Part shown: positions 31,933 through 49,099 of the stretch, one piece after another
How positions within the stretch are numbered: position 1 is the first letter of the stretch
Layout: every line of letters starts with the position of its first letter
DNA from: Colwellia sp. 12G3
GTDB taxonomy: Bacteria > Pseudomonadota > Gammaproteobacteria > Enterobacterales > Alteromonadaceae
Assembly: GCF_002836775.1 (NCBI RefSeq)
Contig: NZ_PJAQ01000006.1
Coordinates: 62,001 to 126,000, forward strand
Direction: 5' to 3'
Length of the DNA: 64,000 nt
Made by a program: the position numbers and the translations under genes
The notes under the pieces: model-generated
Database searches by the model: none
The model's input: the letters and a program-made list of their open reading frames with translations, nothing else
What the model was told of the DNA's origin: nothing

Positions 31933-33054
31933 TTATTGATGTAAAGCATCTTTCAATGCGGTCAAACATAGGGCAACATTTTCACTTTTAGCCGCATGTC
32001 CCATCAGTCCAATACGCCATGCTTTACCGGCAAAAGCACCTAAACCAGCACCAATTTCAAGGTTGTAATGTTCTAGTAAGTAATTTCTTACTTTCGCATC
32101 ATCAGCACCATCTGGGATGTAAATAGCATTCAACTGAGGTAAGCGCTCTTCTTCCGGTACGATAAACTCAATACCTAATTCTTTCAGACCCTTAGCTAAC
32201 ACTTCGTGCTGCTCTCTATGGCGCGCCCAGCTATTTTCTAGACCTTCATCATGTAAAATAACTAAGGCTTCATGAAGTGCATATAAGGAGTTTACCGGTG
32301 CAGTATGGTGGTAACTACGCTTGCCTTTACCTGACCAATAACCCATTACTAAGGTTTGATCTAAGAACCAGCTTTGTATCTGCGTTTTACGATTTTGCAC
32401 CACGGCTACAGCCTTAGGGCTAAATGAGATGGGTGATATACCGGGTACACAAGACATACACTTCTGCGTACCTGAATAGATGGCGTCAATGCCCCATTCA
32501 TCCACTTTAAGCTCAATACCACCTAATGATGTCACTGCATCAACAATCGTCAAACAATCATGCTCTTGGGCCATTTTACAAAGAGCTTTAGCATCTGAAA
32601 CGGCACCTGTTGAGGTTTCTGCATGAACAAAGGCTAAAAATTTAGCATCCGGATGGTCATGTAACGCGGCTTTTACCTTGTGTGTTTCAACAGCTCGCCC
32701 CCATGGAGAGTCAACAATAATGGCCTCTGCGCCTATTCTGGTAACGTTTTGAATCATACGGTCACCAAAAACACCATTGCGACAAACAATGACTTTATCA
32801 CCCGCTTCGACTAAGTTTACAAAACAAGCTTCCATACCTGCTGAACCCGGTGCTGATAAAGCAATGGTAAATTCATTTTTTGTTTGAAACGCATATTGCA
32901 GCAAGGTTTTTACTTCATCCATCATATTGATAAATAAAGGATCAAGATGACCTATAGTAGGTCTAGCCAATGCAGAGAGTACTCGTGCACTTACATCAGA
33001 AGGGCCAGGGCCCATTAAAATTCTTTGTGGTGGATTAAATGATTTAAATGTCAT
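31933..33054 (-). CDS. bhcA: Class V glyoxylate aminotransferase, probable aspartate-glyoxylate aminotransferase
   Basis: 373 residues, PLP fold type I. The PLP lysine is K198 in SGTQKCMSC. GPGPSDVSARVL, HAETSTG and VDAVTSLGG are hallmarks of the alanine/serine-glyoxylate aminotransferase family. On sequence alone it is an AGXT-like enzyme. I assign it to step one of the beta-hydroxyaspartate cycle (glyoxylate plus aspartate to glycine plus oxaloacetate) because candidates for the other three enzymes and the IclR regulator lie at 44.6-49.1 kb, and because its upstream palindrome resembles a site before that regulator. The alternative is a general alanine- or serine-glyoxylate aminotransferase. 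The family call is firm; the bhcA call is moderate. Confidence 0.6.
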   Translation of the reverse strand: MTFKSFNPPQRILMGPGPSDVSARVLSALARPTIGHLDPLFINMMDEVKTLLQYAFQTKNEFTIALSAPGSAGMEACFVNLVEAGDKVIVCRNGVFGDRMIQNVTRIGAEAIIVDSPWGRAVETHKVKAALHDHPDAKFLAFVHAETSTGAVSDAKALCKMAQEHDCLTIVDAVTSLGGIELKVDEWGIDAIYSGTQKCMSCVPGISPISFSPKAVAVVQNRKTQIQSWFLDQTLVMGYWSGKGKRSYHHTAPVNSLYALHEALVILHDEGLENSWARHREQHEVLAKGLKELGIEFIVPEEERLPQLNAIYIPDGADDAKVRNYLLEHYNLEIGAGLGAFAGKAWRIGLMGHAAKSENVALCLTALKDALHQ

Positions 33055-33128
33055 AATTGCTTTACCTTCTATTTTAGTTTTAATTTTTAGTTGTGTTTAT
33101 AAAACAACCTGATGTATCTTAGTAAACC

Positions 33129-33154
33129 GTAACCTGACACAGGTGTCAAGTTAC
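33129..33154. promoter_or_regulatory. 26-bp palindrome, candidate BhcR operator
   Basis: The arms GTAACCTGACAC and GTGTCAAGTTAC differ from perfect symmetry by one base and are separated by AG. Read towards the aminotransferase gene the site includes TTGACA, 17 bp before TTTACT, so it would cover a -35 box. Its core resembles the site at 48256-48271 upstream of the IclR gene. Confidence 0.6.
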
Positions 33155-33248
33155 GAAAAATAGTGAAAACATGAACATATTTAAAAAATTAAAACTAAAA
33201 TAATTAAAACTAAAATAATTAAAATTAAATAACATTAAGAGAGACACT

Positions 33249-34079
33249 ATGAAAATTTCAGCATCACTTATCGCACTTGCATTAACCGCTGCGTTAAATG
33301 CCCCGATGGCATCAGCAGAAATCTGGAGCAATACCGAAGTTCAACTACAAGCAGGTGGTGAATTTGAAAGTGCAGGCGCTCCAGGAAAATCTACCGGTAC
33401 AATTACCACCTTCCAGCATGCTGGTGGTTGGGAATACGGCGATAATTTTTTCTTCGTAGATCATTCCCAGTATTCGGGCAAGAATGGCTTAAATGATTCA
33501 GCTGAATTTTACGGCGAATGGTATTCAAACTTTAGTTTAGGGGCCATGACAGGTAATGATTTATCTTTTGGTCCGGTGAAAGACATTGGCTTAGTTGCTG
33601 GTTTTAACTACGCCCCCGAAGTAGATAGCTCTTGGGTATTACCCGGTGTGCGCTTAGCCTTAGATTTACCCGGTTTTGCTTTTGCACAATTTGATATTAC
33701 CGCATTTATCCATGCAAGCGGTGCTGACTCATCTTTAGCGGGTAACTTCGGTGCGCCCTTCTCAATTATTGATGAAGACACTAGTTTTATGGTCGATTTT
33801 GCCTGGGCTTTACCTTTTAAAGTAGGTTCAACCAGTTGGAGTTTTGAGGGCCACGCAGAGTATATCGACGGTCGTACTCAAGTTAATAACTTCGGCACTA
33901 CCGAGCTAGAATCTTGGATCCTAATTCAACCACAAGTTCGCCTAGATGTTGGTGAATTGATTGGCACGCCATCTAACCGTTTATTCGCGGGTATTGAGTA
34001 CCAATACTGGAAAAATAAACTAGGTGCTAAAGGTGTTGATGATAATACCGTGCAGTTCTTAGCAGTATGGCGTTTTTAA
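33249..34079 (+). CDS. Tsx-like outer-membrane channel
   Basis: 276 residues. The signal peptide is MKISASLIALALTAALNA followed by PMASA. The mature part shows alternating beta-strand text with aromatic girdles and ends in ...FLAVWRF, a C-terminal Phe typical of outer-membrane barrels. It resembles the nucleoside-channel Tsx family (GGWEYGDNFFFVDHSQ, YGEWYSNFS). It is divergent from the aminotransferase gene across a 194-bp region with the palindrome, so it may take up a substrate that feeds glyoxylate metabolism; that link is inferred. GAGAGA precedes the ATG. Confidence 0.75.
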   Translation: MKISASLIALALTAALNAPMASAEIWSNTEVQLQAGGEFESAGAPGKSTGTITTFQHAGGWEYGDNFFFVDHSQYSGKNGLNDSAEFYGEWYSNFSLGAMTGNDLSFGPVKDIGLVAGFNYAPEVDSSWVLPGVRLALDLPGFAFAQFDITAFIHASGADSSLAGNFGAPFSIIDEDTSFMVDFAWALPFKVGSTSWSFEGHAEYIDGRTQVNNFGTTELESWILIQPQVRLDVGELIGTPSNRLFAGIEYQYWKNKLGAKGVDDNTVQFLAVWRF

Positions 34080-34119
34080 TAGCCTAACAAACTGTTTATA
34101 CAAGTAAATTAAAAACAAC

Positions 34120-34146
34120 CTGCCAATATCATTGTGTTATTGGCAG
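34120..34146 (+). terminator. Hairpin after the Tsx-like gene
   Basis: A 9-bp stem (CTGCCAATA / TATTGGCAG) with a 9-nt loop, followed by AGTTTTC. It lies in the 330-bp gap before malic enzyme, which otherwise shows no gene. Confidence 0.6.
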
Positions 34147-34411
34147 AGTTTTCATCGTTCGTACTTTTTGACCGTTCATCTTCAAAAAACGTCTTTAAAC
34201 ACCGTAGTAGGTTTCGAAGTAATCGACGGTATTTTGCATTCATCAACCCTGCATTTAGCCGATTAATCATAAGCTTATTACCCTGAAGACAACGATTTAA
34301 TTTTATTAACAACAACTCTTGGTATTCAACATGCTACCCCAACCGGCACGTTGAGTACTGCCCCTTAATTTATATATTTTTAATCTTATAACACTAAAAA
34401 ATAGGTCACTC

Positions 34412-35659
34412 ATGTCTGATTTTAAACAAGCAGCACTGGATTATCACGCCTTGCCAACACCAGGCAAGATTGCCATTGCCATCACCACCGCCGCGGAAAC
34501 AAGTGCCGATTTATCGCTAGCCTATAGTCCCGGTGTCGCCGAGCCTTGTCGAGAAATAGCCAAAAATCCTGACGATGTTTACAAGTACACCGGCAAAGGT
34601 AATACCGTTGCCGTTATCTCAAATGGTACTGCGGTATTAGGATTAGGTAACTTAGGCCCAATGGCCTCCAAGCCAGTAATGGAAGGTAAAGCTTTATTGT
34701 TTAAACGTTTTGCCGACATTAACTCTTTCGATATTGAAGTAACCCATAAAACAACCGAAGAATTTATCAATACGGTTGCCTGTATTGCTGATAGCTTTGG
34801 TGGTATTAACTTAGAAGATATCAAAGCACCTGAATGTTTTGTTATTGAAAAAGCCCTCAATGAGCGTTGTAAAATACCCGTATTTCATGATGACCAACAC
34901 GGTACTGCCATTGTAACTGCTGCCGCTATGATCAACGCCTTAGAAATTCAAAATAAGAAAATTGAACAAGCTAATATCGTTTGTTTAGGTGCTGGTGCTG
35001 CCGCGATTGCTTGTATGGAACTACTGATTCAATGTGGCGCAATGCGTGAAAAAATCTACATGTTAGATACTAAAGGTGTCATTCATACCCGCCGTAGTGA
35101 TTTATCTGAATATAAAACACGTTTTGCCAATAACACCGACAAAAGAACTTTGGATGATGTTATTGAAGGCGCTGATGTTTTTCTGGGTGTTTCTGGTCCT
35201 AACTTACTTAGTACTGAGCAATTAAAGAAAATGGCAGATAACCCTGTGGTGTTTGCTTGTTCTAACCCAGATCCTGAGATAAAACCTGAGTTAGCACACA
35301 GCGTTAGAAGTGATTTAATTATGGCGACCGGTCGTTCAGATTATCCAAATCAAGTAAACAATGTGTTATGTTTCCCCTTTATTTTCCGCGGCGCTTTAGA
35401 TGTGCGAGCGCGTAAAATTAATAACGAAATGAAAATAGCTGCGGTACATGCAATTAGAGAGCTTGCCAAAAAAGACGTGCCTGAGAGCGTTTTACAGGCA
35501 AGCGGTGAAAAGCAATTATCTTTTGGTAAGGGCTATATTATTCCTCGCCCTATGGATCCCAGATTATGCAAAAATGTTGCCCTAGCAGTGGCTAAGGCCG
35601 CTGTCGACTCAGGTGTTGCTGCGTTACCTTTACCTGATAACTATATGAATGAACCCTAG
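34412..35659 (+). CDS. Malic enzyme (short form)
   Basis: 415 residues, the short bacterial form without the phosphotransacetylase domain of MaeB. It decarboxylates malate to pyruvate with NAD(P). Visible: SLAYSPGVAEPCREI at the start, the metal/substrate region LEDIKAPECF...PVFHDDQHGTA, and a Rossmann motif (CLGAGAAAIA). Next to the glyoxylate aminotransferase and Tsx-like genes it could convert the C4 product of the beta-hydroxyaspartate cycle into pyruvate for biosynthesis. The family call is firm; the link is inference. Confidence 0.9.
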   Translation: MSDFKQAALDYHALPTPGKIAIAITTAAETSADLSLAYSPGVAEPCREIAKNPDDVYKYTGKGNTVAVISNGTAVLGLGNLGPMASKPVMEGKALLFKRFADINSFDIEVTHKTTEEFINTVACIADSFGGINLEDIKAPECFVIEKALNERCKIPVFHDDQHGTAIVTAAAMINALEIQNKKIEQANIVCLGAGAAAIACMELLIQCGAMREKIYMLDTKGVIHTRRSDLSEYKTRFANNTDKRTLDDVIEGADVFLGVSGPNLLSTEQLKKMADNPVVFACSNPDPEIKPELAHSVRSDLIMATGRSDYPNQVNNVLCFPFIFRGALDVRARKINNEMKIAAVHAIRELAKKDVPESVLQASGEKQLSFGKGYIIPRPMDPRLCKNVALAVAKAAVDSGVAALPLPDNYMNEP

Positions 35660-35696
35660 CTAATACCCCGCGCTTTAATCAATTTTACCTCCACAA

Positions 35697-35723
35697 AAAG
35701 TCGCTATCAATAGCGGCTTTTTT
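35697..35723 (+). terminator. Terminator after malic enzyme
   Basis: A 10-bp stem (AAAGTCGCTA / TAGCGGCTTT, one G-U) with a TCAA loop and a T-run. Confidence 0.85.
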
Positions 35724-35768
35724 ATTGCTACTTCTTATGACCGATCATAAATAGATAAAACTACATAC

Positions 35769-35788
35769 AATAACGAATCATTCGTATT
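35769..35788. promoter_or_regulatory. Possible Fur-box-like palindrome
   Basis: AATAACGAATCATTCGTATT contains the palindrome ACGAAT-C-ATTCGT and partly matches the Fur consensus. It lies about 170 bp before the PepSY membrane protein, a family often linked to iron uptake. Weak evidence. Confidence 0.3.
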
Positions 35789-35955
35789 TAAGTTGATGTA
35801 AATGTATTACAATCGCCTAAACGTCACTTAAGTATCCGCAAAGTTACCTCTGCTAAATTTAAGAAAACGTATTTTAGGTCTGCACGACGCTCGCCTTTTT
35901 CGAATTTAAGGAAGTTTAATACCCACACTTATCTGTGTTGGCTCAAGGTAAATAG

Positions 35956-37143
35956 ATGAATATAAGAAAAACTTTTTTTTGGCTGCATTTGATCCTCGGC
36001 TGTAGCGCCGCTATTTTTATTTTTTTAATGTCTATCACAGGTGTTGCATTAACCTATGAACGTCAGATGATTAAAGCAGCCGAGCGAACTGATTACCCTA
36101 TTGCGACAACCAGTTCGACCCAAGTTTTACCACTGTCAGAACTCTTGATTATTGCCAAAGGTTATCCTACGAAAAAGATCGCTGAAATTGTGATAGAAAA
36201 TCAGCCTAATGCGCCGATTATAGTCAAAGATGGTCGAAAGAAAGTCGCTTATCTTAATCCTTACACTGGTGCTGAATTAGCCGTGCCGGGTCAAGACACT
36301 AAAACTTTTTTCAGTAAATTACGTGCTTTTCATCGTTGGTTAACATTTGATGGAAAATTCAGTGAAACGGGTCGATGGGTCAATGGCAGTGCAAATATTA
36401 TCTTTCTAGTGTTAATCCTTTCTGGGCTGTATTTATGGCTACCTAAACGATTTAACTCAAGAGCATTTAAACAAAGATTGACCTTATCGGGTAATTACCC
36501 CAATAAAAGTGCTAGAAATTACCAATGGCATAATGTGTTTGGTGTTTATATGGCACCCGTACTTTTTGTTTTGGTGGTTACCGCGCTATTCTTTTCGTTT
36601 AAATGGCCTGGCAATACCCTTAAAAACCTAGTATCAACGGAGTCATTCTCTCTCGAAAAACCTGTACAGGTTTCAGCTCAACAGGCCTTATTACAACTGC
36701 CTGTAGAACAGCAATTATTAAAGGTCAAAGCGCGTTATCCGCAGTGGCAAACCATTCAATTTTCTTTAGGCACTTCACTCGACTCATCATTAGACTCTTC
36801 ACTAGACAATTTATTAGAGAATATCCCGACCAATAACAAAGTATATCAAGTCGATCAGGGCAATGGTGGCGAGCCACAAAAACGGCTTAAAGTACTGCTA
36901 AACAAAACAACGGGTGATGTGGTACAGGAACAGAAATTTGAGCACTTATCTACTTACAGTAAATTGCGCAGCTATATTCGGTTTTTGCATACGGGAGAGA
37001 TTTTTGGACCTTTTGGACAAACCCTTGCTGGCTTAGCGTCACTACTAGCTTGTTTGTTGGTTTACACCGGAGCGATGCTTTCGTGGCGGCGTTGGCGCGA
37101 CAGCCGAAAAGTAAAGGTCAATACTCCGGTATACGCGACTTAA
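35956..37143 (+). CDS. PepSY-associated transmembrane protein
   Basis: 395 residues with four predicted membrane helices (about 9-31, 147-165, 194-216 and 358-378) and conserved histidines at the helix ends (WLHLILG, FHRWLTF, WHNVFG, FLHTGEIFG). This is the PepSY_TM layout of putative inner-membrane reductases found beside siderophore receptors; the histidines may hold heme. A Ser/Leu/Asp tandem (SLDSSLDSSLDN) sits at about 275-286. No receptor gene is adjacent. The gene is closed by a hairpin. Confidence 0.8.
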   Translation: MNIRKTFFWLHLILGCSAAIFIFLMSITGVALTYERQMIKAAERTDYPIATTSSTQVLPLSELLIIAKGYPTKKIAEIVIENQPNAPIIVKDGRKKVAYLNPYTGAELAVPGQDTKTFFSKLRAFHRWLTFDGKFSETGRWVNGSANIIFLVLILSGLYLWLPKRFNSRAFKQRLTLSGNYPNKSARNYQWHNVFGVYMAPVLFVLVVTALFFSFKWPGNTLKNLVSTESFSLEKPVQVSAQQALLQLPVEQQLLKVKARYPQWQTIQFSLGTSLDSSLDSSLDNLLENIPTNNKVYQVDQGNGGEPQKRLKVLLNKTTGDVVQEQKFEHLSTYSKLRSYIRFLHTGEIFGPFGQTLAGLASLLACLLVYTGAMLSWRRWRDSRKVKVNTPVYAT

Positions 37144-37155
37144 CATACAAACAAT

Positions 37156-37197
37156 AAAGTTGATGAGTGTAATGCTCTATCACGCATCAACTTTTTA
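37156..37197 (+). terminator. Terminator after the PepSY gene
   Basis: A 10-bp stem (AAAGTTGATG / CATCAACTTT) with a 19-nt loop and trailing T. Confidence 0.75.
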
Positions 37198-37212
37198 TTT
37201 TAAACGAATGCC

Positions 37213-37240
37213 TTATACCTATTACCTATTACCTATTACC
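37213..37240. repeat. Heptanucleotide tandem repeat (TATTACC)
   Basis: Three perfect TATTACC units at 37220-37240, preceded by one imperfect unit TTATACC, in the gap between convergent genes. Confidence 0.8.
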
Positions 37241-37292
37241 AATCAAAGTGCAGGATTTCAGCATTTGAAAGAGCAAAACAATCACGTTTACC

Positions 37293-37850
37293 TTAGTCTC
37301 GTTTATATAAGGACTCTATCGTGCTTGTTTCGATAGTGTTGGCATTAATCATATAGCCTGCTAACGCACCTGATGCACCTTCAGGCAATTCAAGCTTCTC
37401 AACTGATAGTGCATGCACGGTAAAGCGATAATGATGAATACCATGGCCTGCTGGAGGACAAGCGCCACCAAAACCTCGGTTCCCGTAATCATTGGTTATT
37501 TGCATGCTTCCTGTCGGTGCTAAGTCTTTTTTAGTGCTACCTGCGCCTGCGGTTAACTCAGTAACGTTCAGCGGAATATTAACAATTTGCCAATGCCACC
37601 AACCACTGCCTGTCGGCGCGTCAGGATCATAAGCAGTAATGGCAAAACTCTTCGTGCCTTCAGGTACACCGGACCATGTTAGCTGAGGTGATAAATCACC
37701 TCCACTACAACCAAAACCAGTGAATTCTTGTGCTTTAGACATGAACTCTCCGTCAGCAATATCCTGACTAGACAATTTAAGCGACTCAGCGAAAACGGTT
37801 GATGAAAGACTTAAGGTGAGTAAAGCAACGACTGTGAACGACCTAAACAT
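37293..37850 (-). CDS. YbhB/YbcL-type PEBP-family protein, periplasmic
   Basis: 185 residues from the ATG at 37850; the in-frame ATG at 37856 sits too close to the AAGGAAC ribosome binding site. A signal peptide (about 1-20) is followed by a phosphatidylethanolamine-binding-protein fold with AYDPDAPTGSGWWHW and GHGIHHYRFTVHAL motifs that form the anion pocket. The bacterial function is unclear. Confidence 0.88.
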   Translation of the reverse strand: MFRSFTVVALLTLSLSSTVFAESLKLSSQDIADGEFMSKAQEFTGFGCSGGDLSPQLTWSGVPEGTKSFAITAYDPDAPTGSGWWHWQIVNIPLNVTELTAGAGSTKKDLAPTGSMQITNDYGNRGFGGACPPAGHGIHHYRFTVHALSVEKLELPEGASGALAGYMINANTIETSTIESLYKRD

Positions 37851-37973
37851 AATCATGTTCCTTATTTAATGTGTTTTTTATGGGGGGTGTAATAACTATA
37901 GGTATGTATTTTAGCGATACGCCATATTATTTATAGTCTCGATACCGTCAAGTTTTCGCCCTAATCCGTCACT

Positions 37974-38819
37974 TTAGTTTTTCTCTTTAGTTTTACGTAA
38001 AGCTGAAGGTGTCAGACCAAATCGCTCTTTAAAGCGGCTGGTAAATCGAGATTGAGATTGATAACCACATTGCTCCGCGATATAGACGATGGAATGACTG
38101 CTCGTTTGCAATAAGTGCAAACCAAGTCCTAACTTGACCTGATCTTTTATTTCTTGAATCGTGGTGCCTTCTGCCGTTAACCTGCGTCTAAGGGTCGACT
38201 CGCTCATAGCAACTTTTTGGCAAATAGTGGCTAGTGCCAAATCTACTGAGGGTTGCTCACTTAAAATGGCATGTATTTTTTGCCCTAATTTATGGGGTGC
38301 GGCCATCGATAAAATGTCTTTATATCCCAAGTGATAGAGTAATTGTAGAATTTCTTTTCTGCGTAAGGACCACATGGCTTGCGGCGAAAATAACGACCAC
38401 TCCACAAATTGCTGTAAGCACTTTGCTAAAGGCGTGGATATTTCACCAATACTAAAAGATTGTTCACTAACAGTATGGGGGCCTATACCGATAAAATCTT
38501 CATATTCAAATTCAATCAGTAGCGCAAAGTATTCTTTTTCTTTCGGAATATTACGCATATTTATCGCGGGGCTATCAGATAAAAAAATGAAGTCACCGGC
38601 ATGACAAACTATTTCCCCGTGCTTGCCCAATTTTTTATCACCATCAAGGACTGCGATAAATAACGGTTTCACTATCGGGACATTTAATAGGTGCTGTTCT
38701 TTTATCGAGGAGTAAACCGCAAAAGGTAGCGTGTGGTCTTCAGTGTTGATCGCCTTAATGGTATTAATAAGATTATTCATGGTCACTGATGTATGTGTAA
38801 TCATTTTTGTGAAAGCCAT
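37974..38819 (-). CDS. AraC-family transcriptional regulator
   Basis: 281 residues. An N-terminal AraC ligand-type domain (about 25-160) precedes the double helix-turn-helix at the C-terminus (ATICQKVAMSESTLRRRLTAEG and YIAEQCGYQSQSRFTSRFKERFG). The start is uncertain: ATGs at 38804 and 38780 are also possible. It resembles the AraC_N / PF06719 group. No obvious target apart from neighbours. Confidence 0.85.
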   Translation of the reverse strand: MAFTKMITHTSVTMNNLINTIKAINTEDHTLPFAVYSSIKEQHLLNVPIVKPLFIAVLDGDKKLGKHGEIVCHAGDFIFLSDSPAINMRNIPKEKEYFALLIEFEYEDFIGIGPHTVSEQSFSIGEISTPLAKCLQQFVEWSLFSPQAMWSLRRKEILQLLYHLGYKDILSMAAPHKLGQKIHAILSEQPSVDLALATICQKVAMSESTLRRRLTAEGTTIQEIKDQVKLGLGLHLLQTSSHSIVYIAEQCGYQSQSRFTSRFKERFGLTPSALRKTKEKN

Positions 38820-38886
38820 TAAGTACTACTTACTGCCTTATGTGTCACTTCAACCATAGGGATGTTTTCAACGTTGGTGGTACGAA

Positions 38887-39342
38887 TTATACAAATCTGC
38901 ACATACCATGACCCATAGTCTGGTTAGGTCTTTGAATATAGCCATAGCGAGCATAAAAGCTTTCTCTTCCTGCTGCCGCTAATAAACCTATGGTAGAACC
39001 TTTACGCGCGGTATAACGTAAATAACCCTCTATTGTATCCATTAACACAGTGCCGAGGCCTTGTTTTTGATAACTTGGATCAACAATCACATCTTGAATG
39101 TAAAAGTACATGGCGCCATCACCAACGACACGTCCCATGCCAATAAGTTGTCCGTCATGATAAATAGTTACCTGAAATAATCCGTTGTTTAAGCTCATTT
39201 CAGCGAGGTTAGCATCAAGCTCACCCCAACCTATTTTACTACGTAAGAGTAAAAAATCTTGCACCGTTGGGTTTTCTAATTTTAAGCAATACTTCTCTGC
39301 TAACACTTGCCTCTCCATTTGTGCTAACGATGGTGAATACAC
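38887..39342 (-). CDS. GNAT-family acetyltransferase
   Basis: 151 residues with the acetyl-CoA loop QKQGLGTVL in the middle and a C-terminal FYARYGY segment. The N-terminal 20 residues vary in the family. Substrate unknown. Confidence 0.85.
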   Translation of the reverse strand: MYSPSLAQMERQVLAEKYCLKLENPTVQDFLLLRSKIGWGELDANLAEMSLNNGLFQVTIYHDGQLIGMGRVVGDGAMYFYIQDVIVDPSYQKQGLGTVLMDTIEGYLRYTARKGSTIGLLAAAGRESFYARYGYIQRPNQTMGHGMCRFV

Positions 39343-41829: not shown

Positions 41830-43041
41830 TTAATTAGCCGTTACGTTAATTTCATTATGCTCACCAAAAGTTGCCATACAGAAGTTTTCAAGCCTTAACG
41901 CTTCGTGCGCATCTTGTTGTTGTTCATTCCACTTAGAAAACGGCTTGTTATATTCTTTAATAAGTCCTTGAACGGGTTGTTGCAATGACTCCAAGGCCTG
42001 TTTGAATAAAGAACGGTCCTGTTTCATATTTCCAGTTAATTCTATTTGTTGTAATGCCGAAATAGCCAGTCGACCAAGATCGTAGGCATGTATAAAGCCT
42101 GCTGGCGCTTTAACTGTTTCTGGAGAGCTAAACTCTTCTGGAAATAGCTTTTTTGCCCTTGCCATGACTGAACGTTGAAATGAAGATTGCTTTGACGAAG
42201 CAAGAGAATAACAACTCTGAATAAAGTGAAAAGATACGGCTTCTTTAACTTGTTTATTAAATATCATATCGACATCACCTCCCGTGGCTCCCCAGTGACT
42301 GATGATAGGAATTCTTTGCTCTTTTTCCATCGCCGCCATCGCATTGACAAATTGATGAGTTTCATTAAAGTTACCCACTAGAAAGACACAGTCATAATCG
42401 TTTGAAACTATATTTCTGATCATTATACGCGCTGAATTTTCTTTAATGTTCCAACCGAATAAGCTTACACCAAAAGGTACTTTCTCTTTTAAATAAGACG
42501 ACATAGTGCTTTGATTAGATTTGCCCCAAGGGGTATCTTCTAATAACAAATGAGGGTTTTTACAGGAGAGTTTATCAAGTGCAAATTCACTGATGCGAAT
42601 ACCTGCTTTGGTATCATCAACAGATAAGCGAAATACCCAGTTATCTGGGCTTGGATAACGTGTTATCGGCCCGCCTGCAGCCCAAGGCACTAAGAGTGGA
42701 ATTTTATTTTCATTGATAAAGGTACGATTTTTTATGTACGGAGGAGAGTGCAAGCCACCCAAGATAAATAATGCTTTTTCATCGTTAAGGAAATCTTTCA
42801 TGCTTAGCAAACTACGTTTAATATTACCTCGATGATTTTTCTCTTTCACTTCTAAACTAAAGCCTTGTATTTCATTGTCTATTTCATCAAATGCGGTAAG
42901 CAATCCCATTTTCATCGCGTTAGCCGATAACTGATTTAATGAGTAATCGGCATCATGATAGATAACCAACTTTTTAGTTGGTTCAGCTAAAGCTGCATAT
43001 GACGCTAGCAAGAAGTAAAATATAATAAATCGAGTTAGCAT
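41830..43041 (-). CDS. Periplasmic binding protein, branched-chain amino-acid type
   Basis: 403 residues with a signal peptide (about 1-19). The fold is the type 1 (LivK-like, Peripla_BP_6) class, with IPLLVPWAAGG and DTPWGKS motifs lining the cleft. No ABC permease is nearby. The gene is immediately upstream of the kinase at 39422, so it is better read as a sensor component than as a transporter part. Ligand unknown. Confidence 0.82.
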   Translation of the reverse strand: MLTRFIIFYFLLASYAALAEPTKKLVIYHDADYSLNQLSANAMKMGLLTAFDEIDNEIQGFSLEVKEKNHRGNIKRSLLSMKDFLNDEKALFILGGLHSPPYIKNRTFINENKIPLLVPWAAGGPITRYPSPDNWVFRLSVDDTKAGIRISEFALDKLSCKNPHLLLEDTPWGKSNQSTMSSYLKEKVPFGVSLFGWNIKENSARIMIRNIVSNDYDCVFLVGNFNETHQFVNAMAAMEKEQRIPIISHWGATGGDVDMIFNKQVKEAVSFHFIQSCYSLASSKQSSFQRSVMARAKKLFPEEFSSPETVKAPAGFIHAYDLGRLAISALQQIELTGNMKQDRSLFKQALESLQQPVQGLIKEYNKPFSKWNEQQQDAHEALRLENFCMATFGEHNEINVTAN

Positions 43042-43142
43042 ATCAAAGGTTCTTAAGTGGTTAATACATTGATACTAAACTTAGCCTAACTTGGTCTATT
43101 TTGCTATGACCAACCCCTTTAAATGGGTAGCTATTGTGATTT

Positions 43143-43319
43143 TTACTTAAATAAGCCACTAACCCAATCAAAAGTTAATACCGTAGTGAATATTTTTAGT
43201 GCAATGACCCCAATAAATAAAAGGATAACTCCCGCTTTTATTTTTCTACTTTTAAGGTTATTCCAATACAATAACTTAGCTTTCAGCTCATTTTTCACTT
43301 CATCTATCGATTCTTTCAT
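43143..43319 (-). CDS. 58-residue single-helix membrane protein
   Basis: MKESIDEVKNELKAKLLYWN starts a 58-residue protein with a charged amphipathic N-terminus (about 1-27) and one membrane helix (about 30-47). Its ATG overlaps the stop of the upstream acetyltransferase gene as ATGA, a classic sign of translational coupling. It is too short for many gene finders. No family is recognised. An opposite-strand frame over the same bases is less credible. Confidence 0.65.
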   Translation of the reverse strand: MKESIDEVKNELKAKLLYWNNLKSRKIKAGVILLFIGVIALKIFTTVLTFDWVSGLFK

Positions 43320-43873
43320 GACACCTTCTCCACACTATTCTTAGCTAAACCCTTCATTAAGTTTTCTGGTGAACCCCAGCTATAAAGAAACTCTTTTACC
43401 TTGTTATCACAAGGAGTATGCCAATAAGCAGTCTTAATATTTTTACCCCCTTTAGCCTCATAAAATCCTATCGCATTGCTATTGCACGCTAAAACCTCGA
43501 GGTATAATTCATGGTCACTATAGTTTTCAATAGACCATGATGCTGCGGCCGCTAATAAACAAGACCCCGTACCCTGGCCTTTACTACCAAGCTTTACATG
43601 AAGATTATCAATGATAGTGCCAAACTTAGGGTGATTAGCACCCAATACACAAATAAATCCGCAAAAGGTGCTATCGATTTCAGCAACTAACACCAATTGA
43701 TTACTCGGTGGTGTTGTTAATCGCATTGTCCACACGGCTGCTCTTTCAGCAAAAACCTTATCATGCAGATAATCAGCAGAAAGTACTGAATGGTAATTAT
43801 CACGCCAGCTTTGTGCATGTAATTCGGCAATATTTGCAAGGTCATCTAAGCTCGCTTCTCTAAGTACTAGCAT
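43316..43873 (-). CDS. GNAT-family acetyltransferase
   Basis: 185 residues. GNAT fold with DNLHVKLGSKGQGTGSCLL (acetyl-CoA loop) and the C-terminal SNAIGFYEAKGG motif. Overlaps the small membrane-protein gene by 4 bp. Substrate unknown. Confidence 0.88.
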   Translation of the reverse strand: MLVLREASLDDLANIAELHAQSWRDNYHSVLSADYLHDKVFAERAAVWTMRLTTPPSNQLVLVAEIDSTFCGFICVLGANHPKFGTIIDNLHVKLGSKGQGTGSCLLAAAASWSIENYSDHELYLEVLACNSNAIGFYEAKGGKNIKTAYWHTPCDNKVKEFLYSWGSPENLMKGLAKNSVEKVS

Positions 43874-44037
43874 TTGATTATTCTCCCACTGTCTAACAAA
43901 TACATATTAAAAGACTATAACCCCGTAAAATACGCTGCAAGGTGAACAAGGTAACTATTTAATAAAATTATCATTACTAGTTTACTACCCTATTCCCTAT
44001 GGTCTTGGTCATGTCTAAACAGTTCCTTTGCTATCAG

Positions 44038-44424
44038 CTATTGCGACTCAATTTGGTTTTTTTCTTCTGCTGTTAATGTTTGATACCAACGAGGATAGGA
44101 CCAACCATAACCCCACCGAAATGTTGTAGGGAATAAGGGGGTTCCGCCAACACGAACACCTGCAAGCATTAGCGCGGCTATTTCCGGCTGCCCGACTTTA
44201 GCCACACATTGTTGAAGCGCTTTATCAGCGATAAGTCGTTCATCATAGGTGCCTCCTTGCCAATAAGCATAGTCATGGGCAGTACAGCAATTTAACCATA
44301 ATTCTTGCTGCGTAAAGGTCCCGTCGGGGAAGGAACTACAGCCATCAGAGGTAAAAGGCTTGATTTCTTCCGCATTAATCGTGAGTGATAATAGCAACAA
44401 TGAAAAGGTAAGTATAAAACGCAT
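44038..44424 (-). CDS. Small secreted phospholipase A2-like protein
   Basis: 128 residues with a signal peptide (about 1-18). The mature chain has paired cysteines and a His-Asp centre, CCTAHDYAYW (C46, C47, H50, D51), then D67 in ADKAL and C73. This layout resembles the catalytic helix pair of secreted phospholipase A2 (CCxxHDxCY...D). The calcium loop is not evident, so the enzyme call is tentative. Confidence 0.5.
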   Translation of the reverse strand: MRFILTFSLLLLSLTINAEEIKPFTSDGCSSFPDGTFTQQELWLNCCTAHDYAYWQGGTYDERLIADKALQQCVAKVGQPEIAALMLAGVRVGGTPLFPTTFRWGYGWSYPRWYQTLTAEEKNQIESQ

Positions 44425-44531
44425 AATATTTGAAAGTTTATCGTTATTGATTGATTGACCAATTTAACGTGAACAACACTGAGTTAACAGCATAAATACC
44501 ATTTACCTGCGTTATTTTTTACAAACAAAAA

Positions 44532-44561
44532 AATGGCTGTTTAAATGAATAAACAGCCATT
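44532..44561 (-). terminator. Terminator of the bhcB-bhcC-bhcD transcription unit
   Basis: An 11-bp stem (AATGGCTGTTT / AAACAGCCATT) with an 8-nt loop. On the minus strand a run of seven T follows. It lies 54 bp after the bhcD stop. Confidence 0.85.
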
Positions 44562-44614
44562 AGGAGTTATTAATTTTTAATTAGCGCCTATGATAAATGC
44601 CCTAACGCTCAGCC

Positions 44615-45634
44615 TTATAAACTGAAGTAAGTAGCTAGACCTTTAGCTTCAGCCAATTGTGCCGCAACCGAAGCAACCGCTAAATCTTGTAAACCCACAC
44701 CAGTACCATCAAACAAGGTAATTTCTTCATCAGAAGTTCGTCCCGGTTTAGTACCGTTAATTACATCACCAATTGGCGTGATATCAGACGCTTTGATCAA
44801 ACCAGCAGCAACAGCGTGTTGCGCTTCACCTATGGTAATAGACTGAGCAATCTCATCGGTAAATACTGTAGCAGTCGCTAATAAATCGGCATCAACTTCT
44901 TGTTTACCTTTGGTATCAGTCCCCATACAAGCGATGTGAGTGCCAGGCTTGATCCAATCTTTTTCTATTAACGATTCAAAAGCAGAGGTAATGGTAATAA
45001 TTACATCCGCTTGAGCACCTAACTCTTCGCGAGTGACTGACTCAAATGGCAAACCTAATTCTTTAGCTACCGCTGCCAGGTTAGGAAGCATGTCAGGGTG
45101 GAAGTTCCACGCGACCACTTTTTCAAAATCACGTTGCTCAACTGCAGCACGTAATTGGAAAGTAGACTGGTGACCTGCACCGACCATACCTAATACTTTT
45201 GCATCTTTACGCGCTAAATGCGCGATAGAAACAGCAGAGGAAGCAGCAGTACGTACCGCGGTTAAATAGTTGCCACCAACCAGTGATTTTAGCTTACCGG
45301 TATCGGGATCAAATAAAATAACAGTAGACTGATGGTTAGTTAATCCTTGTGCCATGTTATCTGGCCAGTAACCGCCAGATTTTAAACCTAACACCATGCC
45401 GTCACGGTCAAAACCTGATTTAAAACCATAAAGTGCACCCGCATGACCAATATCTTCACGAATTACCGGGAAGTTGTATGCGGTATTTTTAGCCATGGCG
45501 GAAAATACGCTTTCTACCGCGGTAAAGGCATCTGCACGACCAATGACTTCTTGGCAAATTTCTTCAGAAACAACGGATACGCCCTTTTTTTCTGGTAACG
45601 AGATTGTTGCTGAACTGCTTTGTGAATTACTCAT
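44615..45634 (-). CDS. bhcD: Ornithine cyclodeaminase-fold enzyme, probable iminosuccinate reductase
   Basis: 339 residues, ornithine cyclodeaminase/mu-crystallin family. The NAD-binding loop is GMVGAGHQSTFQLRA and the substrate side has GALYGFKSGFDRDGM. In the beta-hydroxyaspartate cycle BhcD reduces iminosuccinate to L-aspartate with NADH, regenerating the amino donor. The call relies on context: the bhcC-like and bhcB-like genes lie directly upstream and an IclR regulator is divergent. Alone the family also includes alanine dehydrogenases and ketimine reductases. Confidence 0.72.
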   Translation of the reverse strand: MSNSQSSSATISLPEKKGVSVVSEEICQEVIGRADAFTAVESVFSAMAKNTAYNFPVIREDIGHAGALYGFKSGFDRDGMVLGLKSGGYWPDNMAQGLTNHQSTVILFDPDTGKLKSLVGGNYLTAVRTAASSAVSIAHLARKDAKVLGMVGAGHQSTFQLRAAVEQRDFEKVVAWNFHPDMLPNLAAVAKELGLPFESVTREELGAQADVIITITSAFESLIEKDWIKPGTHIACMGTDTKGKQEVDADLLATATVFTDEIAQSITIGEAQHAVAAGLIKASDITPIGDVINGTKPGRTSDEEITLFDGTGVGLQDLAVASVAAQLAEAKGLATYFSL

Positions 45635-45722
45635 AATTATTATCCTAGGAAAGTGGTACAGCCAATAAATTTGCTAAACCCTCGACGACTGCCGAAGGTG
45701 AAGGGTTACAATAAAGCTGCTA

Positions 45723-46871
45723 TTAAAAAGCTTTACCACGTGCAGACACTGGCCATAAGGTTTCAACCTTGCCATTACGTACACCAACATAGTAATCATG
45801 TACGTTACATGTTGGATCACAATGACCGGGCACTAGTTTAAGTTTTTCATTAATTTTTAATGCGCCGTTAGCGTCTGAAATAACACCATGTTCATCAGAA
45901 CACTTGATGTATTCAACATCGTCACGACCAAAGATGTACGGCAAACCACTATCTACTGATTGCGCCTTAAGACCCGCATCACAGATAGCTTTGTCAGCTT
46001 TGGTATGGCTCATAACAGACGTTAAGATGAATAATGAGTTTTCGAATTCTGATATTCTCTTGCCATTTTCATCATGAATACGTTGGTAATCCGCATCCAT
46101 AAAGGCGTAAGAACCACACTGTAATTCATTGAAAACACCTGAGTTACCTTCAAAGTAGTATGAACCCGTACCACCACCGCCAACGATGTCACACTCAAGT
46201 CCTTCCGCTTTCAGCATGTCAACCGTGCGAGCAACCATGCCAATTGCAATGTCGATTTTTTCTTTACGCTCTTGGAAACTTTCTAAATGCTGCATAGCGC
46301 CTTGATATGCTTGAATGCCTGAGAAAGTTAGTCCCGGTGTAGCTGCAATCGCTTTAGCGATATCAACAACAGGTTGACCTTCGCTTACACCACAACGACC
46401 TGCGCCACAGTCAATTTCAACTAAACATTCAATTTGCGTATCATGCTTATTAACCGCTGCCGCTAATTCAGCAACGTTTTCCAAATCATCAACACACACA
46501 ATAGTACGAGCACCCAACTTAGGTAGGCGTGCTAAACGATCAAGTTTTGCTGGATCACGTACTTGGTTTGACACTAAAACGTCTTTAATACCACCGCGAG
46601 CAAAGACTTCTGCTTCAGATACTTTTTGACAACATACGCCACAGCTATCACCCAACTTTTCTTGTAAAAGCGCGATATCTACCGATTTATGCATTTTTCC
46701 ATGCACACGATGGCGAACGCCCATCTCTTTCGCGTAGCCACCCATTTTAATAATGTTACGCTCTAACGCGTCTAAATCGACTATCAAACAAGGTGTTTGA
46801 ATATCAGCTTCGTCCATACCCACAAGTGCTGGAACGTCATAACCTACTTCTAAATCGTTTACTTTTGTCAT
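45723..46871 (-). CDS. bhcC: D-threonine-aldolase-fold enzyme, probable beta-hydroxyaspartate aldolase
   Basis: 382 residues from the ATG at 46871 with GGAG upstream (the frame extends four codons to a TTG). PLP fold type III with the lysine in RVHGKMHKS (K59) and the VGGGGTGSYYF phosphate loop. The C-terminal metal site reads PGHCDPTCNVHD, so the usual His-x-Cys of D-threonine aldolases is His-x-Asp here. BhcC joins glycine and glyoxylate into beta-hydroxyaspartate. The gene sits between bhcB- and bhcD-like genes. A D-threonine aldolase or D-serine dehydratase role is the alternative. Confidence 0.75.
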   Translation of the reverse strand: MTKVNDLEVGYDVPALVGMDEADIQTPCLIVDLDALERNIIKMGGYAKEMGVRHRVHGKMHKSVDIALLQEKLGDSCGVCCQKVSEAEVFARGGIKDVLVSNQVRDPAKLDRLARLPKLGARTIVCVDDLENVAELAAAVNKHDTQIECLVEIDCGAGRCGVSEGQPVVDIAKAIAATPGLTFSGIQAYQGAMQHLESFQERKEKIDIAIGMVARTVDMLKAEGLECDIVGGGGTGSYYFEGNSGVFNELQCGSYAFMDADYQRIHDENGKRISEFENSLFILTSVMSHTKADKAICDAGLKAQSVDSGLPYIFGRDDVEYIKCSDEHGVISDANGALKINEKLKLVPGHCDPTCNVHDYYVGVRNGKVETLWPVSARGKAF

Positions 46872-46941
46872 TTTATTCTCCAAAATTTTAGTTATATTTT
46901 TTGCTGTAGACTTAATTTTATTTGTTACTCTGCTTGTCGGC

Positions 46942-47919
46942 TTATTTAGTCATCCACGGCAGTTTGTCTAAATCGACATTTCCGCCCGTCAAAATGACGC
47001 CGATACGTTTGCCTTTAAACACCTCAGGATTTTTCAAAATAATGGCCAGTGTTACCGCACTGCTTGGCTCCACAACGATTTTCATGCGGATCCAAATAAG
47101 CTTCATTGCCGCAACAATTTCGTCTTCCGTTGCCGTTAAAATATCGGTGACATGGTTTTTAACAAAATGCCAAGTTAAGTCTTTTAAAGGAACTTTCAGG
47201 CCATCCGCAACCGTATCCGGTGCATCATCAGCAATGATATAACCGGCTTTGAAAGAACGTGCTGCATCGTCAGCATTAAGTGGCTCAGCGGCATAAACTT
47301 TTATCTCTGGGGCAATGGTTGATAAGGTCAGGCAAGTACCTGAAATCATGCCGCCACCACCAATTGGCGCAACCACGATATCTAAACCTTGCACCTGACT
47401 AACCAACTCTTTTGAACATGTTGCTTGCCCTGCAATTACACGTGGGTCGTTGTATGGATGAACGAAGTCAGCACCTGATGCGGCAACAACATCAGCAAAT
47501 ACCGCTTCACGAGAACTGGTAGAAGGTTCACATTCGACAATAATGCCGCCATAACCAATTACCGCATCTTTCTTCGCTTGTGGCGCTGTACGTGGCATGA
47601 CTACGGTAACGGGAATTCCACGTCGTCCTGCAGCGTAAGAGAGTGATAAGGCATGATTGCCTGATGAATGTGTGGCAACACCAATTTTTGCTTCTGCATC
47701 GGTTAAACCAAAAACAGCATTACAGGCACCGCGTACTTTAAAAGCCGCTGCCTTTTGCAAGTTTTCACATTTAAAAAACAACTCGGCCCCGGTTAATTCA
47801 TTCAGGAAACGTGAGGTTAATACCGGTGTTTCATGAATAAAGGGTTTAATACGTTCATGGGCAACGAGTACATCTTCGTAACTTGGAATGATCATGGTCG
47901 GTTTGGTTGAACTGCTCAT
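46942..47919 (-). CDS. bhcB: Serine/threonine dehydratase-fold enzyme, probable beta-hydroxyaspartate dehydratase
   Basis: 325 residues, PLP fold type II. The PLP lysine is K61 (AAAFKVRGACN), the cofactor loop SSGNHALSLS and the phosphate loop GGGGM are present, and there is no ACT domain. BhcB converts beta-hydroxyaspartate to iminosuccinate. AGAGGAA precedes the ATG. The gene is divergent from the IclR regulator and leads the bhcB-bhcC-bhcD series. Threonine dehydratase or serine racemase is the alternative if context is ignored. Confidence 0.75.
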   Translation of the reverse strand: MSSSTKPTMIIPSYEDVLVAHERIKPFIHETPVLTSRFLNELTGAELFFKCENLQKAAAFKVRGACNAVFGLTDAEAKIGVATHSSGNHALSLSYAAGRRGIPVTVVMPRTAPQAKKDAVIGYGGIIVECEPSTSSREAVFADVVAASGADFVHPYNDPRVIAGQATCSKELVSQVQGLDIVVAPIGGGGMISGTCLTLSTIAPEIKVYAAEPLNADDAARSFKAGYIIADDAPDTVADGLKVPLKDLTWHFVKNHVTDILTATEDEIVAAMKLIWIRMKIVVEPSSAVTLAIILKNPEVFKGKRIGVILTGGNVDLDKLPWMTK

Positions 47920-48077
47920 ATGTTCCTCTTCTTCTTAAATTAATCTTTGCTAACCTTTTGCTAGCTAAGGTGCATCATTAGATTGGCACTAAATTGCACT
48001 GGTTTTGTGCGTTATCACGCCACGTAAACGTTAAAATCACTCTAGGGAGAACAACATCACAGAGCAATCTAGTTGGA

Positions 48078-48192
48078 TTTCACTATGTGAGATAAAGGTT
48101 CTTTTTCACCAAGTGAAAAACATAACAAGCTGAATTTATTCGCAATTATTTCCACAAAGACAATAGGAACCGGTAAGTTTCACAATATGAAA
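48078..48192. promoter_or_regulatory. Three TTTCAC-N3-GTGAAA-type inverted repeats
   Basis: Three sites lie in the 391-bp space between bhcB and the IclR gene: TTTCAC-TAT-GTGAGA (48078-48092), TTTTTCAC-CAA-GTGAAAAA (48102-48120, perfect) and TTTCAC-AAT-ATGAAA (48178-48192). The first and third start exactly 100 bp apart. They look like repeated binding sites for one regulator. Confidence 0.6.
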
Positions 48193-48255
48193 TCATTGAA
48201 TGTCAATTTAGTGATGGTGTTCTGTGGTGTTTAGTTCTATATTGAAAGAACAAAG

Positions 48256-48271
48256 TTGACACAAGAGTCAA
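48256..48271. promoter_or_regulatory. Candidate operator/promoter of the IclR gene
   Basis: TTGACACAAGAGTCAA is an imperfect inverted repeat 40 bp before the gene start. It shares a 13-of-15 core with the palindrome at 33129-33154. TTGACA with TATTCC 16 bp later also reads as a promoter, so the site would overlap the -35 box. Confidence 0.5.
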
Positions 48272-48310
48272 GAAACGTATTCCGCGACTAAGCCATTGAG
48301 TAGAGATTTT

Positions 48311-49099
48311 ATGAAAAGAGAAAAACCAGAATCTAAAATTCAAGTGATCGATAGAGCAGCGATGTTACTCGATGCGATATCACGCTATACCATGCCGGTA
48401 ACATTAAAAGCGCTTAGTGCAGATACTACTTTGGCGCCCTCTACGGCTTTTCGTATATTACATTCGCTTATCGATAATCATTTTGTTGACCGCGACAATT
48501 CAGGTAAGTACCAGTTAAGTGGCCGACTGATTAGGCTAAGTAATTACCAATATCAAAACGTTGATTTTCGTAAAGTGGCCATTCCCTACATGGAAAAGCT
48601 GCGTGATAAATTTGGTGAAACCATTAACCTTACTGCGCGTGAAGGCGATGTGGTTATTTACGTAGAAAAAGCCATTCCCAATAGAATGATGCATGTTCAG
48701 CAAATTATTGGCAGCCGTGCGCCGCTGCATGTCACTGGCGTGGGTAAGATGATGCTGGGCATGGAAGGCCATGAAGGTATTGTGGGTTATGCGCATCGCA
48801 CAAACTTGCCAACCTATACCCGTAAAACATTTTCAGAGATCGAAAGCTTAGAGCGTGAATGTATGCGCTGTGTCGAACAAGGCTTTGCCTATGATAACGA
48901 AGAAGCCGAGATCGGCGTAGGTTGTATTGGCGTATTGTTATATGACAGATACGGTGAAGTTGTCGCCGGATTATCGGTATCCGCCCCGATTGCGCGACGT
49001 AAAGATGAATGGATTAAAGACTTAGTCAAAGCAGGTAAATCAATCTCCATTGAACTTGGATATGTTAAAAACCAACAACCGCTCAAAGAAGCCAGTTAA
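48311..49099 (+). CDS. bhcR: IclR-family regulator, probable BhcR
   Basis: 262 residues from the ATG at 48311 (MKREKPESKIQV); the open frame reaches back to a TTG at 48296. An N-terminal winged helix (about 10-75, IDRAAMLLDAISRYTMP...LAPSTAFRILHSL) is followed by the IclR effector domain with its cysteine-containing ECMRCVEQGFAYDNEEAEIGVGCIG segment. BhcR proteins of other bacteria are IclR-type activators that respond to glyoxylate. This gene is divergent from bhcB, the same layout as in known clusters. The regulator class is firm; the BhcR name is by context. Confidence 0.75.
   Translation: MKREKPESKIQVIDRAAMLLDAISRYTMPVTLKALSADTTLAPSTAFRILHSLIDNHFVDRDNSGKYQLSGRLIRLSNYQYQNVDFRKVAIPYMEKLRDKFGETINLTAREGDVVIYVEKAIPNRMMHVQQIIGSRAPLHVTGVGKMMLGMEGHEGIVGYAHRTNLPTYTRKTFSEIESLERECMRCVEQGFAYDNEEAEIGVGCIGVLLYDRYGEVVAGLSVSAPIARRKDEWIKDLVKAGKSISIELGYVKNQQPLKEAS

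Follow-up and report, generated by a model that had tools for sequence, protein, structure and literature searches.

Genes of the bhc locus and of the aminotransferase locus

The window analysed here, a 64,000-nucleotide stretch of the genome of Colwellia sp. 12G3 (contig NZ_PJAQ01000006.1, positions 62,001 to 126,000), carries genes of the beta-hydroxyaspartate cycle (BHAC) and, apart from them, a class V aminotransferase gene that is considered below as a possible member of the same system. According to PMC11323563, the BHAC is the route by which Alpha- and Gammaproteobacteria predominantly assimilate glycolate, and purines are a source of glyoxylate. Three minus-strand genes form the core of the locus: bhcD (44615-45634, iminosuccinate reductase, ornithine-cyclodeaminase fold), bhcC (open reading frame (ORF) 45723-46883 with the ATG taken at 46871, 3-hydroxy-D-aspartate aldolase, D-threonine-aldolase fold) and bhcB (46942-47919, beta-hydroxyaspartate dehydratase, dehydratase fold). 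Pfam and NCBIfam bear out the fold names given to the window genes, and all three products exceed the cut-offs of the NCBIfam equivalogs, with 589.3 bits against 550 for BhcB (NF045641), 725.8 against 690 for BhcC (NF045642) and 579.7 against 500 for BhcD (NF045643), so that the bhc-like genes of a first-pass annotation of this DNA proved genuine. All eight genes described in that annotation were present where it had placed them. Its reading of a Colwellia-like source also held, since the nearest named locus among the best 80 of 591 BhcC relatives was that of Colwellia sp. 75C3 (G408; G and L numbers denote other genomes and loci in the comparison), with a 99% identical BhcC and DNA of 88.6% identity over 17.4 kb aligned.

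Divergent from bhcB, on the plus strand, lies the gene of an IclR-family regulator (48296-49099), whose likely start is the internal ATG at 48311, as it matches relatives better than 48296. A plus-strand gene encoding a GlcG/HbpS-like protein (49186-49617, PF03928) is located beyond it. The regulator scored 154.8 bits with the BhcR equivalog NF045644 (cut-off 350), which says little, because the model is blind to gammaproteobacterial regulators next to true bhcA (149.9 bits in L026 and 158.3 bits in L034). By position and operator it can be regarded as the local counterpart of BhcR, as had been proposed, even though that cut-off was not reached. When it was aligned to E. coli IclR, with the E. 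coli residues reproducing Table 1 of PMC11323563, the holders of the keto-acid oxygens G160, D212, S239 and S241 were kept, V161 was present, and the hydrophobic patch read M/V/A/V; these ligand residues make it plausible that the regulator senses glyoxylate or pyruvate. An IclR-family regulator over glyoxylate genes is also known from E. coli, where PMC11323563 describes AllR in the control of allantoin use.

The aminotransferase gene (31933-33054, minus strand) is the proposed stand-in for bhcA. Across a short gap from it, on the plus strand, are the genes for a Tsx-like outer-membrane channel (33249-34079) and for a short-form malic enzyme (34412-35659, PF00390/PF03949). The Tsx-like protein matched PF03502 only below threshold (22.1 bits, cut-off 27.2). 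Its best AlphaFold2 model reached a predicted local distance difference test score of 71.8 (the other four models, 33.6-60.8), and in a Foldseek search of the PDB that model was nearest to 1tlw, Tsx with thymidine, by two chains (E 1.9e-9 and 6.5e-9; next molecule, 1.7e-5). The earlier description of a Tsx-like porin, weak in sequence, is thus supported by the predicted fold, and the protein is probably a nucleoside channel. A RutR-like TetR regulator (26481-27107, plus strand) was recognised by PF08362, with 172 bits for TIGR03613 (cut-off 368).

Like bhcABCD/bhcR of Paracoccus denitrificans, as given in the available part of PMC11323563, the locus has B, C and D equivalogs in the order B-C-D and a divergent IclR-family regulator, and conversion of glyoxylate to C4 without loss of CO2 would be expected here too. 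Unlike in P. denitrificans, there is no bhcA, an AGXT-clade aminotransferase lies elsewhere, the regulator falls under the BhcR cut-off, and the genes are linked to purines, not to glycolate oxidase.

Placement of the aminotransferase and its co-occurrence with bhcBCD

The first-pass annotation had taken the aminotransferase for a displaced bhcA and had named grouping with AGXT beforehand as one of the outcomes that would speak against this. The protein scored 209.1 bits with the BhcA equivalog NF045640, against a cut-off of 650. On the whole source genome at E<=1e-5, the model recovered two proteins only, this one at 208 bits and another AGXT, encoded on contig C30, at 202 bits, both under the cut-off. 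The same model sees gammaproteobacterial BhcA, with 720-733 bits in four of four controls (L026, L029, L030 and L034), and no BhcA over the cut-off was found in any of 14 genomes queried. The best PDB relatives of the aminotransferase were AGT/AGXT proteins, namely 1vjo of Nostoc (E 3.2e-102) and human AGXT, the closest solved relatives, from which the genomic setting here differs. In a tree of 73 proteins, it fell into an AGXT subclade of 24 rows (clade I, support 100/98) and outside the separate clade of 14 BhcA rows (100/100), the two being separated by branches of several changes per column; some long branches were flagged in this tree (L222, L223 and others), none within clade I. The low score, the placement in the AGXT clade and the lack of a BhcA over the cut-off in the source genome rule out the displaced bhcA. 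Of the annotated complete but split BHAC, the bhcBCD genes are therefore real, and the whole would work like a BHAC, whereas its BhcA is missing. Judged by sequence, BhcA appears to have been replaced non-orthologously by a glyoxylate aminotransferase of the AGXT clade.

Comparison of clade I with 32 other AGXTs revealed only four near-fixed differences (I12, D98, E110 and I311), none of them at K198, R347, D172 or S148, which we take to be the pyridoxal phosphate (PLP) and substrate residues of AGXT. Across the alignment K198 never varies and R347 hardly does. In the active-site comparison that had been suggested, the PLP lysine and the carboxylate arginine are kept, and no aspartate-specific residue was found. 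As the four near-fixed sites miss the catalytic positions, there is no sequence sign of aspartate specificity. Some breadth in the amino donor does exist in such aminotransferases, since BhcA of Paracoccus also uses serine according to the available part of PMC9436414.

A sequence search also found PucG (E 2.6e-72) and UGXT (E 6.4e-64), and the purine setting described below, together with the ureidoglycine aminohydrolase (L205) of the clade-I genome G416, would suit an (S)-ureidoglycine-glyoxylate aminotransferase of the PucG/UGXT type acting in purine degradation. This identity is disfavoured and very unlikely, because AGT/AGXT is closer and the source genome has allantoicase and ureidoglycolate lyase, a route that makes no ureidoglycine.

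In a family sample of 246 genomes, BhcC over the cut-off was found in 13 genomes spanning five genera (G307, with only a distant relative of 335 bits, was left out). All 13 carried a clade-I aminotransferase (81-100% identity), as did only four of the 233 genomes without BhcC (G322, G328, G366 and G416; Fisher 1.7e-18, kinship uncorrected). In an order-wide sample of 295 genomes, BhcC at E<=1e-100 occurred in the source genome only. The malic enzyme gene was located no more than two genes from the aminotransferase in all 13 BhcC genomes and in one of the four clade-I genomes without BhcC, a linkage that supports the earlier idea of an outlet for the C4 product, and in 10 of these 13 the Tsx-like gene adjoined that of the aminotransferase. 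Found in every BhcC genome of the sample and sharing a control site, the aminotransferase does belong with the bhc system, as had been proposed, and so does malic enzyme.

These observations also bear on a second explanation, in which the enzyme is an ordinary alanine/serine-glyoxylate aminotransferase of purine breakdown and bhcBCD forms a linear path from two glyoxylates to aspartate, closed only by general transaminases and thus not strictly a cycle. It agrees with the AGXT clade and the unchanged catalytic positions, with clade I in four genomes that have the urate hydroxylase PuuD and no BhcC, and with an AGXT gene in G440 beside the genes for malate synthase G and PuuD without bhc; the presence of clade I in every BhcC genome once bhcA is gone argues against it. 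We give this explanation about an even chance. That estimate purposely overlaps with the higher one given below for a purine-fed cycle, as such a relay is compatible with the purine-fed cycle and differs from it only in the amino donor.

The named loci, the best 80 of 591 BhcC relatives, were classed by the gene before bhcB; eight were omitted (five with missing or unclear upstream sequence and three in which no bhcB was seen). BhcA lay directly before bhcB in 55 of the 72 classed loci. In the other 17, the regulator was directly before bhcB and BhcA was missing; 16 of these came from Colwellia, Thalassotalea or Shewanella and one from the Solemya velum gill symbiont. Fifteen further genomes, hand-chosen among the 80 loci, were queried for clade I, GlcD and PuuD. 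Clade I was present in four of four BhcA-less Colwellia and Shewanella genomes (82-85% identity) and in none of the ten genomes with BhcA beside bhcB.

To place the BhcA-less loci, a bhcBCD tree of 43 loci was built by a quick method with no bootstrap, after 32 near-duplicates had been removed by hand, together with loci without one of the three genes. The 16 BhcA-less loci formed one clade (Shimodaira-Hasegawa-like approximate likelihood ratio test, SH-aLRT, 97) inside the bhcA-keeping Oceanospirillaceae, nearest to Bermanella and Marinomonas, and the Solemya symbiont was separate. Rows L052, L058, L072 and L082 were labelled BhcA in this tree; three of these loci show a piece of BhcA, which in L082 is only 38 residues long, and L058 shows none. 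The closest bhcBCD genes were those of Bermanella (L025) and Marinomonas sp. MED121 (L026). The iclR gene is 72-78% identical to those of these two and of Amphritea balenae (L030), and GlcG is beside iclR in L025 and L026. The Oceanospirillaceae differ in having BhcA over the cut-off where tested (L026 and L030) and no AGXT of clade I. The nesting makes loss of bhcA after acquisition of bhc probable, and the simplest reading of the tree would be transfer from an Oceanospirillaceae-type donor followed by loss of bhcA, with a second loss in the Solemya symbiont.

Several loci depart from these patterns. The Solemya velum gill symbiont (L054) has bhcBCD and iclR without bhcA, an AGXT of only 69% identity, a GlcD-like gene (561 bits) and no PuuD at E<=1e-20, apparently an independent loss of bhcA outside a purine setting. 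In G440 (L176), genes for malate synthase G, PuuD, guanine deaminase, AllA and 5-hydroxyisourate (HIU) hydrolase are accompanied by that of an AGXT (77% identity) which falls outside clade I, and the stretch has no bhc genes; this is perhaps a stage before the arrival of bhc. The one-contig genome G322 (L201/L165) contains iclR, the clade-I aminotransferase, Tsx, the boxes described below and a purine operon, with no BhcC match. A further clade-I aminotransferase of G295 (L153) is encoded on another contig next to a Tsx-like gene, with no box 1 nearby. In L056, from the Oceanospirillaceae metagenome-assembled genome DT_73, a BhcC relative of 79% identity was found, and bhcA, bhcB and bhcD were not recognised within 21 kb.

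Shared palindromes and the purine-degradation setting

The matrix of box 1 (consensus TTTCACATTGTGAAA), a predicted operator-like site of the IclR-family regulator, was built on 16 distinct iclR-bhcB regions, every one of which contains two to four copies. In the window, where strand does not apply to such sites, box 1 occurs between iclR and bhcB at 48178-48192 (21.9 bits) and 48104-48118 (19.2 bits), with a weaker copy at 48078-48092 (15.4 bits), and 3' of the aminotransferase gene at 31811-31825 (21.2 bits). On loci outside the training set, the matrix matched the regulator-bhc region in 11 of 15: all six of the Oceanospirillaceae type, three of the seven from Alphaproteobacteria, and L042 and L054. 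Three exact matches to the pattern were present in the window against 0.12 expected, and none of 100 shuffles reached three. Genome-wide there were 15 matches, and all seven that were intergenic (outside ORFs of at least 80 residues) were at these genes, on four contigs: two between iclR and bhcB and one 3' of the aminotransferase on the window contig, one before xdhA on C41, two between the SulP and NCS2 permease genes on C19, and one before the genes for YtoQ and a urea transporter on C1. The copy 3' of the aminotransferase was found in 17 of 20 loci read, and a hypoxanthine phosphoribosyltransferase gene came next in 8 of the 20. Downstream of the aminotransferase in L156, L159 and L162, remnants resembling a broken hypoxanthine phosphoribosyltransferase gene were observed, with the IclR box still in front of them.

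The second palindrome, box 2 (TTGACACNNGTGTCAA), was defined on 15 distinct promoters between the aminotransferase and Tsx genes. Its only window sites lie in the aminotransferase-Tsx gap (33134-33149, 24.5 bits, part of the training set) and between iclR and bhcB (48256-48271, 18.6 bits), with about 0.4 expected at 12 bits or more. Of 14 readable stretches upstream of xdhA, 13 contain box 2, at 24.5-25.9 bits; only that of G194, a genome with neither BhcC nor clade I, is without it. It was also present in 7 of 16 distinct iclR-bhcB regions. Neither box occurred upstream of any of the 32 other AGXT genes. The Oceanospirillaceae loci share the IclR box and differ in showing no RutR-like box at 15 bits or more in the stretches read. 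As a predicted site, box 2 marks base metabolism, to which the aminotransferase and Tsx genes, and in some genomes bhc as well, have been added.

The RutR-like TetR gene adjoins the purine operon in many relatives. In E. coli, RutR is a regulator of base degradation of the TetR/RutR type, and the window TetR is likened to it. Box 2 has the same architecture as the E. coli RutR consensus and another core, so its assignment to the RutR-like regulator is one that we infer from architecture and linkage. The E. coli consensus itself gave three matches in the window against 3.09 expected, none in the promoters discussed.

In relatives, genes of purine degradation are located physically beside bhc or the aminotransferase. 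Their neighbourhoods jointly contain XdhABC, PuuD, guanine deaminase, HIU hydrolase, 2-oxo-4-hydroxy-4-carboxy-5-ureidoimidazoline (OHCU) decarboxylase, allantoinase, allantoicase and ureidoglycolate lyase, and also malate synthase G, NCS2 permease, SulP, hypoxanthine phosphoribosyltransferase, YtoQ, a urea transporter and the RutR-like TetR regulator; this is a pooled list that not every genome carries in full. In Colwellia sp. 75C3 (L195), the purine operon follows within a few genes of the aminotransferase and TetR gene. The catabolic purine operon of the source genome is on contig C41 (about 205.8-220.2 kb), with a complete set of xdh, puuD, HIU hydrolase, OHCU decarboxylase, allantoinase, allantoicase and AllA genes. 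Guanine deaminase, allantoinase, XdhA, XdhB, allantoicase, OHCU decarboxylase and malate synthase G exceeded NCBIfam cut-offs there, and PuuD, AllA and XdhC exceeded Pfam cut-offs; the HIU hydrolase, which straddles the boundary of two sequence stretches, was identified through alignment to L195. PuuD was present in all 13 BhcC genomes, in all 17 clade-I genomes and in 96 of the 246 overall, and within the genus of the window in four of four BhcC genomes vs one of seven others.

The separation of the window from C41 may have a structural basis. A 1,160-nucleotide inverted repeat (98%) occupies 11510-12669 and 25141-26300 of the window; it ends at 26300, and collinearity with Colwellia sp. 75C3 stops at 26302. 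On C41, near 204 kb (L193:12037-12490), there is a second copy (98%) of 454 nucleotides from the region of the RutR-like gene. Either the purine/BHAC island was split by a rearrangement at 26300, or the assembly is in error. Group II intron domains (RF02012 and RF00029) were found inside the rearranged stretch at 23567-24335, with no ORF of at least 100 residues between them.

Source and fate of the glyoxylate

In the first-pass annotation, the GlcG-like gene was thought to mark a glycolate link, so that the pathway would be a glycolate-fed BHAC in which a displaced bhcA uses aspartate. A GlcG/HbpS-like gene was indeed near iclR in 15 of 17 BhcA-less named loci. GlcD was judged by E-values because the cut-off of TIGR00387, which none of 15 genomes exceeded, is too stringent in these groups. 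At E<=1e-100 it had no match in the source genome and was missing from 12 of the 13 BhcC genomes, the source genome included; only three of the 246 family genomes had it, one with BhcC (G295). GlcD was found in 2 of 17 BhcA-less genomes (the 13 and G525-G528) vs 8 of 10 BhcA-bearing ones (Fisher 0.0007), and the two BhcA-less exceptions, G295 and G528, scored 536 and 524 bits. GlcG as a glycolate marker is therefore unsupported, there being no GlcD in the source genome, in a search that did not extend to FMN-type (flavin mononucleotide) or other glycolate dehydrogenases, and the region is tied to purine degradation instead. BhcBCD are genuine, GlcD-like genes do occur in G295 and G528, and GlcD is usual in BhcA-bearing relatives. 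With GlcD missing from 15 of 17 BhcA-less genomes, an AGXT-clade aminotransferase far from BhcA and shared boxes that point to purine genes, a glycolate-fed BHAC in this genome is nevertheless very improbable. PuuD was found in 17 of 17 BhcA-less and 9 of 10 BhcA-bearing genomes, and being common to both sets, it suggests that purines may feed the BHAC in the BhcA-bearing group too.

The glycerate route is apparently missing, since Gcl was below the cut-off in all 17 genomes queried (the 13 and the four with clade I only; best 343 bits, cut-off 711). In E. coli, glyoxylate is removed by Gcl and the glycerate pathway, for which the BHAC would substitute here.

It is likely that a purine-fed BHAC is encoded, with an AGXT-clade aminotransferase in place of BhcA. 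Nucleosides and bases would enter by the Tsx-like channel and the NCS2 permease, and would be degraded to urea and glyoxylate by guanine deaminase, xanthine dehydrogenase, urate hydroxylase, HIU hydrolase, OHCU decarboxylase, allantoinase, allantoicase and ureidoglycolate lyase. Part of the glyoxylate would be converted to glycine by the aminotransferase, and BhcC would join glycine and glyoxylate to beta-hydroxyaspartate, which BhcB would turn into iminosuccinate and BhcD into aspartate. Aspartate would then yield oxaloacetate, its amino group being passed on directly by the window aminotransferase or through a relay of housekeeping aspartate and alanine aminotransferases. Once reduced, oxaloacetate could be carried to pyruvate by malic enzyme, with malate synthase G as a parallel drain. 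The IclR-family regulator, probably sensing glyoxylate, and the RutR-like TetR regulator would coordinate the purine and bhc halves.

In a more far-reaching version, an AGXT-family enzyme would have convergently taken over the aspartate-glyoxylate step, and the whole cycle, reassembled without BhcA, would have been switched, under the control of two stacked operators (for a glyoxylate-sensing IclR and a base-sensing RutR-like TetR regulator), from the use of algal glycolate to the recovery of carbon from purines in cold-water Gammaproteobacteria. We regard this as possible, though rather doubtful. BhcB and BhcC homologues in other families act on hydroxyamino acids, so that bhcBCD might instead detoxify beta-hydroxyaspartate or another hydroxyamino acid and merely be located in a purine region. 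The three equivalogs occurring together with iclR and operator-like sites, and the boxes common to purine genes on other contigs, speak against detoxification, which we hold to be very improbable.

A number of observations weigh against the purine-fed cycle. The residues of the aminotransferase give no pointer to aspartate as amino donor, the co-occurrence counts are inflated by common descent, and in G435, G469 and G485 the genes for Tsx and the aminotransferase are not neighbours. PuuD is also present in 83 of 233 genomes without BhcC, which indicates that purine breakdown needs no BHAC, and G295 and G528 carry both PuuD and a GlcD-like gene. A reversed-pattern control gave 10 matches in the source genome vs 15 for box 1, and eight of the box 1 matches fall within ORFs, including two that score 20.0 and 20.4 bits. 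Only in the genus of the window (G000, the source genome, and G408, G478 and G506) was box 1 seen before xdhA. At the aminotransferase it lies 3' of the gene and not before it, with weaker front copies in three relatives only, and three clade-I loci are without it. Box 2 at 12 bits or more is missing from 9 of 16 iclR-bhcB regions, and it occurs in two purine-degrading genomes without BhcC, G298 (at NCS2-SulP, 16.3 bits) and G346 (23.5 bits, before a gene that resembles adenosine deaminase by appearance, with no family search made), so that it marks base metabolism rather than bhc. Finally, all support is computational, from sequence and predicted structure. Gene identities, the lack of a BhcA over the cut-off, co-occurrence, synteny, tree nesting and shared palindromes were computed; from these we infer every reaction in this organism, the amino donor, the assignment of regulators to sites and the ligands of the regulators.

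The purine-fed cycle would be a known pathway in a variant form, supplied from an unexpected source, and the founding 2019 Nature paper may already describe some Gammaproteobacteria as missing bhcA. Among the open-licence PMC papers listed, no title or abstract opening joined the BHAC with purine degradation in Colwellia or Shewanella, and the available parts of PMC8307300 and PMC10499878 held nothing on a purine-fed BHAC. Since bhcBCD of Colwellia, Thalassotalea and Shewanella stand in a purine setting mostly without GlcD, bhc in metagenome counts could partly report nucleic-acid turnover. The cycle can lose its defining aminotransferase and perhaps continue with an enzyme of another clade. 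The purine-fed cycle predicts that purines induce and require bhcBCD.

Two further features of the window were noted. A tRNA was found at 11222-11282 by Rfam (47.5 bits) and not called by ARAGORN. A penicillin-binding transpeptidase-fold protein (PF00905) is encoded at 54980-55801, and it resembles class D beta-lactamases.

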